Shown here piece by piece: positions 3,599-37,179 of a stretch of 64,000 nt of DNA; within the stretch, counting starts at the first letter, position 1; every line of letters begins with the position of its first letter. The notes under the pieces were generated by a model. The model saw nothing but the letters and a program-made list of their open reading frames with translations. It was not told the DNA's origin and made no database searches. Position numbers and translations under genes: made by a program. This DNA comes from an uncultured Alphaproteobacteria bacterium. GTDB lineage: Bacteria > Pseudomonadota > Alphaproteobacteria > HIMB59 > GCA-002718135. The DNA lies in NCBI GenBank assembly GCA_902567855.1, contig CACFOQ010000006.1:1-64000 (forward strand). Reading direction: 5' to 3'.

Positions 3599-6500
3599 TC
3601 AAGCATTTTCTAAAAATTCTATAGAATAATCTATTTTTTTGCTATCCATTAACTTATCCATATTTTTATAAGATATAATCTTATATTTTTTAGAAAAATC
3701 AAAAGATAATAATTTTCCATTTTTATTCATATATACAAACAAATTTTCATTTGAATGTTCGCATTCTTCAATAATAGAGTGTAAAAAATCATAATCTGAA
3801 TTTTTTTGAAGATAAATATTTATTGTTTTATTATTTTCATGAAATGTTTTATCAAAGTCTTTAATTTTTCTTATCACAAGTCTAATGTTTTCATTATTTC
3901 TTGAAATATCAATGTAGAACAAAAGAACATTTCCTTCTTTAATATAGTTTCTATATTCACTTAATTGATCATTAAAAATAGATAATTCAACTTGAGATTC
4001 TAAAGTTGATATAGTTAAAAAAGCATATTTTTTTCCTTCTTTATTTGATCTTTCTTTTATATCTAAAATTGATCCTACTATTTTGGCATTACTAATTTCA
4101 GAATTATTAATTATATCTTGATAATTAAGAATATTATTGTGTTCAAAATAATTTTTTGGATATAATGATAGAGGATGATTAGAAAAATAAAATCCAATTA
4201 CGTCTAATTCACTTTTTAACAAAAATCCTGTATTCCATAAATCAATATTTTGCTCAAATAAATTTTCATCTAAAAAACTAATTTTAGAGTCTTCAAAAAG
4301 TGATGATTGATCTAAATTTATTTCTTTATTTCCACCAAAAATTTCTACAAAATTTTTAACATTTGCAAATAGTTTTGCTCTATTTTTTTCTATTCCATCA
4401 AAACAACCTGCTTGAATTAATTTTTCTAATTGCCTTTTATTTATTACTTCTCCTTTTAATCTAGACATAAAATCAATAATATCTTCATACTTTCCATTTT
4501 TATTTCTTTCATCTACTAAGTACTGCATAGATTTCATCCCTACACCTTTAATAGCAGCTAAGCCAAATCTTATTGATTTAATTCCATTATCTTCTTCAAT
4601 AGAAAAATCAGCTGAGGAAAAATTAATATCTGGTTTTTTAAATTCAATATTCAGTCTGGCAATCTCTTTCTTTAGTAGGATAATTCTATCTGTCCTATCA
4701 ATAGAATAATTTAAAGTTGCGGTCATAAACTCAAAAGGAAATGTAGTTTTTAAATATGCTGTTTGATATGCTAAAAGAGCATAACCTGCAGCATGACTTT
4801 TGTTGAAACCATAACCAGCAAATTTGTTTACTAAATCAAAAATCTTAGAAGATTCATTGAATTGAATTTTATTTTTTTTTGCCCCATCAATAAATCGATT
4901 TTTTTGGGCATCCATTTCTTTTTGAATTTTTTTTCCCATAGCTCTTCTAAGTAAATCTGCTTCACCTAAAGAATAATTTGAGAGAACTTGAGCTATTTCC
5001 ATAACTTGTTCTTGGTAAACTATAATACCATAAGTCTCTTTCAAAACATTCTTCAACAAAGGATGAATATAATTAATATCTTCTTTTCCATGTTTTCTAT
5101 TACAAAAAGATGGAATATTATCCATTGGGCCAGGTCTAAAAAGTGCAACTACTGCAATAATTTCTTCAAATTTATTTGGCTGCAATTGCCTTAATACGCT
5201 TCCCATACCATTACTTTCTAACTGAAAAATTCCTATAGTTTCTCCATTACTTAGATTTTCAAATGTTTTTTTATCATTCATTGTAATGCTTTTGAGGTTA
5301 AAATTATTAATTCTTTTTTTAATTAAATTGGTTGTATCTTGGATAATAGATAAAGTAGTTAATCCTAAAAAATCAAATTTAATCAATCCAGCTTTTTCAA
5401 CATACTTCATTGAAAATTGGGTAGCATTAACTGAGGTATTTGGATCTTTATATAAAGGAACATTTTCTATAATTTTGGTATCTCCAATCACAACGCCAGC
5501 TGCATGAGTTGAAGCATGTCTATGTAAACCCTCTAATTTTAAACTTATATCTACAACATTAGAAATTCTTTCATCATTTTTAACAATATCCTTTAAATTG
5601 ATATCTGAATTAATTGATTCTTCTAAAGATAAAGGGTTGGCTGGATTATATGGAATTAATTTAGCAAATTGATCAACTTCTGAATATGGAATTTCTAAAA
5701 CTCTTCCAACATCTCTAAAAGCAGCTCTAGATGCCAAAGTTCCAAAAGTAATAATATGAGCAACAGAATCTTTGCCATATTTATTATTTACATATTCAAT
5801 AACTTCATCCCGCCTATTTTGACAAAAATCAATATCAAAATCAGGCATAGAAATTCTTTCAGGATTCAAAAAGCGTTCAAATAATAAATTATATTGCAAA
5901 GGGTCTAAGTCAGTAATTAATAAAGACCATGCTACTACGCTACCTGCCCCTGAGCCTCTTCCAGGACCGACAGCAATATTATTATTTTTTGCCCAGTTGA
6001 CAAAATCTGAAACAATCAAAAAATAACCTGCAAATCCCATTTTATTGATGATATCTAATTCATATTTCAATCTTTTTTCATAAGGCTCACGAGATTTAAT
6101 TTCATTTTCTTTAATTCTTTTTTCTAGACCAAGATTAGATTTTTCATTTAATAGTTCAGATTCAGTTAACGAGGCATCTGTAGAAAATTTAGGTAATCTT
6201 GGATTTATTTCTATAGGAAAATAATTACATTTTTTAGCAATAGATAAATTATTATCAATGACTTCAGGTATATCAGAAAATATTTGTAACATTTGTTCAG
6301 AATCTTTAAAATATAACTCTGGATTTGAGGTTTTTCTATTTGTTTGATTAATTGTAGTTTTTTGAGCAATACATAGTAACGCATCATGAGATAAAAAATC
6401 TTCTTTATTTTCAAACTTAATATTATTTGAAGCTATTAAAGGAACATTAAATTCATTAGCATAAACAATAAATTCATTTTCAAATTCATCTATTTCATTA

Positions 6501-33666: not shown

Positions 33667-33751
33667 TGGTAGGCCGGAAAGGACTTGAACCTTCACACCT
33701 CGCGGCATAGGAACCTAAATCCTACGTGTCTACCAATTCCACCACCGGCCC
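33667..33751 (-). tRNA. tRNA-Leu(TAG), CCA encoded
   Basis: 85 nt, long variable arm; anticodon loop TTTAGGT; GGGCCGG/CCGGCCT acceptor. Confidence 0.95.
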
Positions 33752-33876
33752 TTTAATTTTCGCTTTTATGTTGAACTCAATTAATAAACAACAAAGAATA
33801 TAATTTTTTTAATAAAATATTTTAGCTATTTTCTAGTAAAAAAAGCTCAAATATAAGATTTGGGTGGTAAAAAAAA

Positions 33877-33954
33877 TGGGGCGAACGAAGGGATTCGAAC
33901 CCTCGACATCGGGCACCACAAGCCCGCGCTCTAACCAACTGAGCTACGTTCGCC
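33877..33954 (-). tRNA. tRNA-His(GTG), G-1 and CCA encoded
   Basis: GGCGAACGTAGCTCAGTTGGTTAGAGCGCGGGCTTGTGGTGCCCGATGTCGAGGGTTCGAATCCCTTCGTTCGCCCCA. Confidence 0.96.
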
Positions 33955-35497: not shown

Positions 35498-35538
35498 ATT
35501 AACTTTACAAGAATTAAAAAATCAATAAAAAGGTTTTA

Positions 35539-35594
35539 ATCGTTCAATTTAAATTTATTTAAATCGGAAGTAGATCTAACGATCGAAGGAACGC
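35539..35594 (+). ncRNA. glnA-type glutamine riboswitch aptamer, copy 1
   Basis: CGTTCA - AT-rich hairpin - CGGAAGTA - GATC/taac/GATC hairpin - GAAGGAACGC; P1 CGTTC/GAACG; upstream of glnA. Confidence 0.8.
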
Positions 35595-35609
35595 ATGCAA
35601 AAGTTATAA

Positions 35610-35660
35610 ATCGTTCAACCTTTGCAAAGGTCGGAAGTAAGCAACAGCTGAAGGAACGCG
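35610..35660 (+). ncRNA. glnA-type glutamine riboswitch aptamer, copy 2
   Basis: CGTTCA - ACCTTtgcaAAGGT - CGGAAGTA - AGCaacaGCT - GAAGGAACGCG; same core as copy 1 with different, compensated stems. Confidence 0.85.
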
Positions 35661-35697
35661 CATAAAGCAGATTTCATAACTAGAGCATGGATAGAAT

Positions 35698-35729
35698 TAA
35701 ACTATACTTAATTATGAGTTTAGTTTTTT
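35698..35729 (+). terminator. Possible terminator-like hairpin in the glnA leader (candidate expression platform)
   Basis: TAAACT ... AGTTTA then GTTTTTT, between the second aptamer and the glnA RBS. Confidence 0.35.
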
Positions 35730-35745
35730 AAAGCGTGAGGTAATT

Positions 35746-37179
35746 ATGAAATATAACTGTAAAACACCAAAAGAACTTTTAAAAAAAGTAAAAAATGAAG
35801 ATATTAAAATGGTTGATCTTCGTTTCACTGATATGCCTGGTTCAACTCATCATATATCAATCCCATTTAAATACCTTAAAGAAGATTTATTTAAAGATGG
35901 AGTAGGTTTTGATGGTTCTTCAGTAAGAGGTTTCCAATCTATAGAAAATAGTGATATGGCAATGGTGCCAGATGTTACTACAGCTTATATAGATCCCTTT
36001 TACTCAGAAAAAACAATTGCATTTTACTGTGATGTTGTCGACCCTATAAGTTATGAAAGTTATGAAAAAGATCCTAGATACATAGCAAAAAAAGCAGAAA
36101 AATATTTAAAATCCTCAGGTATGGGTGATACTGCATATTTTGGACCAGAAGCAGAATTTTTTGTTTTTAATGATGTAAAGTATGATTCCGGATCTAATTT
36201 TGCATTTCATGAAGTTGATTCAACTGAAGGGTCTTGGAATACAGGAAAAGATGAAAATCCAAACCTAGGACATAAACCAAGGCATAAAGGAGGCTACTTT
36301 CCTCTCCCTCCATCTGATAGTTTACAAGATGTTAGAACTGAAATGGTATTAACAATGGAAGAAATAGGAATAAATGTTGAAGCTTCACATCATGAAGTCG
36401 CTACAGGTGGTCAGTGTGAAATTGATTTAGAATTTTCTCCACTACTGTCTATGGCTGATGATCTTCTAAGATATAAATATGTCGTTAAAAATGTTGCTAA
36501 ACAATATGGAATGACTGCTACTTTTATGCCTAAACCGCTTTTTGAAGATAATGGCTCTGGTATGCATGTTCATTCAAGTATATGGAAAAAAAATAAAACT
36601 TTAATGTATAAAAAAGGTAATTATGCTGATTTAAGTGATTTTGCATTACATTACATAGGGGGAATATTAAAACACGCTCCATCTTTATTAGCTTTTTGTG
36701 CACCTACTACTAACTCTTATAAAAGATTAGTTCCTGGTTTTGAGGCTCCGGTAAATATAGCTTATTCTCAAGCGAATAGAACTGCATCAGTAAGAATACC
36801 TAATAACTATACTGCGAGTCCAAAAGCTAAAAGAGTTGAATTTAGATGTCCAGATCCTTCTTCAAATCCCTACCTTGCATTTTCAGCAATTTTAATGGCA
36901 GGTTTAGATGGGGTTAAAAATAAGATTAATCCTGGAAAACCAACAGACATAAATATTTATGAAGCGCCAGCTAGCGTGCTTGCTAAGATTCCTTCAACTC
37001 CTGGATCTTTATCTGAGTCACTAAGTGCACTGGAAAAAGATCACAAATATTTACTTCAAGGAGGAGTATTTACAAAGGATAACATTGAAACATATATATC
37101 TTACAAAAGAGAAAATGAAGTTAGTCCAATGGATCTTAGACCTCATCCACATGAATTTCATTTATATTACGACGCTTAA
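35746..37179 (+). CDS. glnA: Type I glutamine synthetase
   Basis: 477 aa; [48 protein letters not shown]. Confidence 0.97.

Follow-up and report, generated by a model that had tools for sequence, protein, structure and literature searches.

What occupies the 248 nt that separate a PII gene from glnA in the window (the whole 64,000-nucleotide stretch of DNA analysed here), and how might it govern glnA? The initial annotation had proposed two consecutive glnA RNA units at this position, in an alphaproteobacterial context, each with the same P1 helix and with P2 and P3 differing in sequence between them. A cmscan of the whole window against all Rfam families returned two full-length matches (model positions 1–53 of 53) to RF01739, the glutamine riboswitch or glnA RNA (Table 1). 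The proposed P1 pairing is present in both units, P2 and P3 differ in sequence and remain paired, profile matches to PF00543 and TIGR00653 identify the flanking genes, and the alphaproteobacterial context is right, all as the annotation had it; the organism is a streamlined marine member of that class. The element is, judged by its sequence, a true tandem glutamine riboswitch, and glutamine binding is predicted. We put at roughly 0.75 the probability that it acts as a tandem glutamine riboswitch before glnA with one translational platform, through which the glutamine pool sets glnA translation.

Table 1 Features of the glnB–glnA region, in positions of the window
Feature	Position	Strand	Basis
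glnB-type PII protein, 113 aa, T-loop without the ELYRGAEY uridylylation segment	35156..35497	+	PF00543, 107 bits; T-loop aligned to E. coli GlnB and to the PII proteins of the sister family
Putative glnA promoter, CTTTACA then a TA-rich stretch	35503..35531	+	CTTTAC (35503-35508) kept in 18/18 relatives inspected; inferred
Glutamine riboswitch aptamer 1	35539..35597	+	RF01739, 59.6 bits, E 1.2e-10; compensatory changes in P2/P3
Aptamer 1 P1 helix	35541-35545 with 35589-35593	+	CGTTC/GAACG
Inter-aptamer linker CATGCAAAAGTTATAAAT, 5' strand of putative helix P0	35594..35611	+	16/18 positions invariant (25 leaders); complementary to block
Glutamine riboswitch aptamer 2	35610..35662	+	RF01739, 66.3 bits, E 1.8e-12
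Aptamer 2 P1 helix	35612-35616 with 35654-35658	+	CGTTC/GAACG
Invariant block ATTTCATAACTAGAGCATG, 3' strand of putative P0 and alternative partner of glnA start region 35743-35751	35671..35689	+	19/19 positions invariant (25 leaders); pair counts for both partners
Hairpin P4, probably a spacer in the translational platform; followed by T's missing from most relatives	35699..35726	+	Stem in 25/25 leaders, 0/28 positions invariant
glnA ribosome-binding site GAGG	35737..35740	+	Sequence and position ahead of start codon
glnA, type I glutamine synthetase, 477 aa	35746..37179	+	TIGR00653, 650 bits, above cut-off

Conservation of the aptamer pair

The aptamer helices were followed through 25 diverse related leaders. 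P1–P3 are 96–100% paired, and two-sided changes occur at 12 pairs, all of them in P2 and P3. With the structure drawn from the window sequence, putative helix P0 included, 98.8% of cells are paired, compared with 27.6–37.9% when the partner is slid by 1–3 columns. Minimum-energy folding of the whole leader was rejected as evidence for the aptamers: it gave no excess stability (z −0.58), and the P1 strands paired across aptamers.

The genome carries five RF01739 aptamers at three loci. Besides the pair before glnA, contig C15 carries a second tandem pair, ahead of a 'marine subtype' ammonium transporter, and contig C10 carries a single aptamer ahead of another ammonium transporter. The lone aptamer on C10 speaks for a reading in which just one aptamer works before glnA and the other copy is a decaying duplicate. 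We consider this very improbable: each copy clears the gathering score of 35 bits by a wide margin, the core CGGAAGTA...GAAGGAACG is retained in both across the 25 leaders, and two aptamers are found in all 66 related glnA leaders for which upstream sequence is available. The spacing of the two is nearly equal throughout these 66 leaders, with the first aptamer about 200–219 nt upstream of the glnA start codon.

Upstream of aptamer 1, by about 30–40 nt, the motif CTTTAC recurs in all 18 relatives inspected. The consensus promoter scan reported no promoter at this putative site; the conservation of the motif suggests that glnA may have a promoter of its own, and the aptamers would then lie at the extreme 5' end of the transcript. 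Further upstream, beyond glnB, two tRNA genes lie on the minus strand (33670-33953) between a trigger-factor-like gene and an aminotransferase gene.

A probable shared platform 3' of aptamer 2

The 18-nt linker between the aptamers and a block 3' of aptamer 2 are almost frozen among relatives, and they are complementary to each other through CATGC/GCATG, AGTTAT/ATAACT and AAAT/ATTT, with small internal loops between these segments. The helix predicted from this pairing, P0, would surround aptamer 2 and lie directly beside P1 of the first aptamer. The linker:block duplex is better than dinucleotide shuffles in each of 14 leaders (p ~0.01–0.025), which are related to one another, and P0 positions hardly vary, so that covariation lends no support to P0 within the glnA leaders. 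The same block is complementary to the glnA start (ATTTCATAA/TTATGAAAT), with 7 of 9 pairs invariant and likewise without covariation support within these leaders. Because both pairings use the block, they are mutually exclusive.

The same linker–block layout is found before amtB and before an ATP-grasp operon, with changes such as ATAGCT for ATAACT. Ahead of amtB the block is altered (TTTCCATA), and in most of these leaders it is the ribosome-binding site (TATGGAG) that it matches. When block and target were swapped between glnA and amtB leaders, the blocks weakly preferred their own partners (mean −5.7 versus −5.0 and −7.2 versus −4.9 kcal/mol), with one amtB start mis-assigned, so that we attach little importance to this result.

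We found no hairpin, terminator, ribosome-binding site or conserved open reading frame in the 18-nt linker. A mini-ORF there (ATG CAA AAG TTA TAA behind AAGGA) was rejected, as its stop is lost in two leaders (L069 and L114) and the amtB and ATP-grasp linkers differ. By its sequence anatomy, the glnA leader has one candidate platform, downstream of aptamer 2. Since the linker leaves no room for a separate switch, aptamer 1 probably has no platform of its own and the pair probably shares a single translational one. Cooperative glutamine control of glnA is plausible, and gains support from the sharing of the platform.

The remaining element of the leader is hairpin P4, which the initial annotation had put forward, together with the six T's that follow it, as a possible expression platform. 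The hairpin itself is real and conserved as a structure, and its stem is longer than the 6-bp TAAACT/AGTTTA pairing first read, which forms its core; a column-by-column pair test of P4 is weak, as the cross-genus alignment is uncertain there. The rest of the proposal fits less well. The T-run is present in the window and in a few near kin and is missing in most relatives, and P4 overlaps neither the aptamers nor the block, nor any strand able to switch. We rejected hairpin plus T6 as a general terminator mechanism; with its T-run not conserved, P4 is probably not a terminator. It is read instead as a spacer that probably brings the block near the glnA start codon, and a platform made of linker, invariant block and start codon fits better.

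These observations also bear on whether the leader holds two independent riboswitches in series, with the hairpin and T6 as an intrinsic terminator. Such an arrangement would agree with a survey of 157 glutamine riboswitch doublets, which as a group were called pseudo-cooperative (PMC9481103), and with the six T's directly after the hairpin in the window. It would leave aptamer 1 without a platform, however, given the empty linker; the T-run is missing in most relatives, the terminator scan reported no intrinsic terminator, and no potential antiterminator strand overlaps the hairpin. We therefore regard independent switches as unlikely, and favour a single platform shared by both aptamers.

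Direction of control

The proposed mechanism is as follows. The two RF01739 aptamers would form the glnA leader and set translation by the glutamine pool, both feeding the one expression platform. In one state the linker would pair with the invariant block to give P0; in the other, the block would mask the glnA start codon while P4 loops out from between them. The binding of glutamine would tip the balance between the two. High glutamine is expected to lower glnA and amtB expression, and the RNA would then be the glutamine sensor that replaces the GlnD/PII-UMP signal. We favour such glutamine OFF control, with reasonable though incomplete confidence, as it is what physiology predicts for glutamine synthetase and ammonium uptake.

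The opposite sign, in which glutamine would stabilize P0, free the start codon from the block and turn glnA and amtB translation ON, is what folding leans towards. When both aptamers were enforced in silico in 67 glnA leaders, the median number of P0 pairs rose from 0.8 to 10.2, the accessibility of the start codon climbed from 0.04 to 0.56, and in amtB leaders the block:start pairing was removed; more P0 pairing and a freed start were seen in the majority of glnA and amtB leaders. The cyanobacterial glutamine riboswitches tested also activate expression (PMC6316151), but these control glutamine synthetase inhibitors, and glutamine activating glutamine synthesis and ammonium uptake would make no physiological sense. 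Nor is the folding consistent: in the window's own leader the glnA start is covered in both folded states, and single-aptamer leaders give no clear ON/OFF direction. The energy model, moreover, leaves out tertiary contacts and co-transcriptional folding. The ON/OFF call from folding, over the 67 glnA, the amtB and the single-aptamer leaders, was accordingly set aside, and ON control is in our judgement rather unlikely; glutamine OFF control is retained as the preferred direction.

Distribution, protein sensors and known systems

RF01739 is found in 106 of the 110 genomes of the window's family and in none of the 52 genomes of a sister family in the same order. In a class-wide sample of 337 genomes, it occurs only in the window's family and in one other family (f10), there as single aptamers, and the exact tandem pattern was found in no other of 399 genomes sampled across the phylum. 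Among named records, the closest glnA genes belong to marine Alphaproteobacteria assembled from single cells or metagenomes (AG-426-I04, MarineAlpha5_Bin5 and Bin7), some of them labelled Pelagibacteraceae. We would place the order around HIMB59/AEGEAN-169 (SAR11 subclade V), with the window's family adjoining HIMB59.

Several further loci were noted. Glutamine riboswitches, tandem in the window's family and single in f10, precede an operon for circularly permuted ATP-grasp, Alpha-E and transglutaminase-like proteins (L162 937-4374; also L166, L167 and L168), which suggests a role of that operon in nitrogen metabolism. A putative open reading frame of about 17–19 codons separates the riboswitch from the ATP-grasp gene and ends at or just before the start of that gene (L162, about 1110-1182, and homologous leaders), perhaps reflecting translational coupling. 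Elsewhere, near the riboswitch-controlled second ammonium transporter, lies a second gene resembling glutamine synthetase (nearest to type III, though below the cut-off; L014 5047-6462). Tandem aptamers were also sought among viral contigs and found on one of them (L135, IMGVR 3300005074_000578): a glutamine riboswitch pair (4840-5035, minus strand), whose linker differs, precedes a glutamine-synthetase-like gene.

The protein side of glutamine sensing is reduced in the window's family. GlnD (TIGR01693) was found in 0 of its 110 genomes and in 42 of 52 sister-family genomes, many of the genomes being incomplete; GlnE (PF03710) was likewise found in 0 of the 110. Ten examined family genomes that have PII carry it as a single copy, and in all ten the T-loop lacks the ELYRGAEY segment, which holds the uridylylated tyrosine; this segment is retained by the sister-family PII proteins GlnB and GlnK. 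NtrC passed its cut-off in none of 17 genomes from either family and is thus uninformative. G109, a family genome that is 93% complete, lacks RF01739, PII and GlnD alike and has apparently lost all of these glutamine sensors.

Given the loss of GlnD in the family, RNA has probably taken over glutamine sensing there, and it appears to replace the GlnD branch. A single split in the tree underlies the exclusion between GlnD and riboswitch, and in f10 three of the 4 genomes have GlnD alongside a single aptamer. A broader proposal is tentative, and we give it somewhat less than even odds: that across the family RNA has replaced the whole GlnD/GlnE/PII-UMP cascade, with the twin aptamers, joined by the linker–block helix, working as a single cooperative switch that acts on the start codon or the ribosome-binding site in front of glnA and amtB.

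The riboswitch class, its tandem form and its link to glutamine synthetase are already known from environmental sequences (PMC2864571, PMC6316151). The original description of the class drew on cyanobacteria and marine samples (PMC2864571), and according to a review, glutamine riboswitches that precede genes for glutamine synthetase, PII and ammonium transporters were known solely from uncultured strains, through environmental sequences (PMC6316151). What is new is the host family; the near-invariance of linker and block, which points to a single translational platform for both aptamers; and the fact that all this coincides with the loss of GlnD, GlnE and the PII T-loop segment. Glutamine riboswitches before these genes are now placed in a defined alphaproteobacterial family with small genomes, which offers a clean natural setting in which to ask if RNA can do the work of a protein signalling cascade in its stead, and the invariant linker and block make a concrete, testable prediction for two aptamers acting on one platform.

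The pair shares its core and its gene associations (glutamine synthetase, PII and ammonium transporters) with the glnA RNA as described (PMC2864571), but sits in a defined alphaproteobacterial family as a doublet whose frozen linker would pair with a frozen downstream block. Like the surveyed tandem glutamine riboswitches (PMC9481103), it has two aptamers of one class in a leader; those are assumed to be independent switches, whereas here aptamer 1 has no evident platform of its own and would share one, which argues against the pseudo-cooperative label. The tandem glycine riboswitch resembles it in having two similar aptamers, a short linker and one expression platform (here by sequence anatomy), although its aptamer and ligand are unrelated to those of the glutamine pair. 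The Synechocystis gifB glutamine riboswitch belongs to the same aptamer class and serves nitrogen control with RNA as the glutamine sensor, but it controls and activates an inhibitor of glutamine synthetase, whereas here the target is the gene of the enzyme itself. The GlnD/PII/GlnE cascade of Proteobacteria carries out the same task, adjusting glutamine synthetase to glutamine, with the very proteins that the window's family lacks (GlnD and GlnE) and with a PII whose uridylylation segment is here missing.
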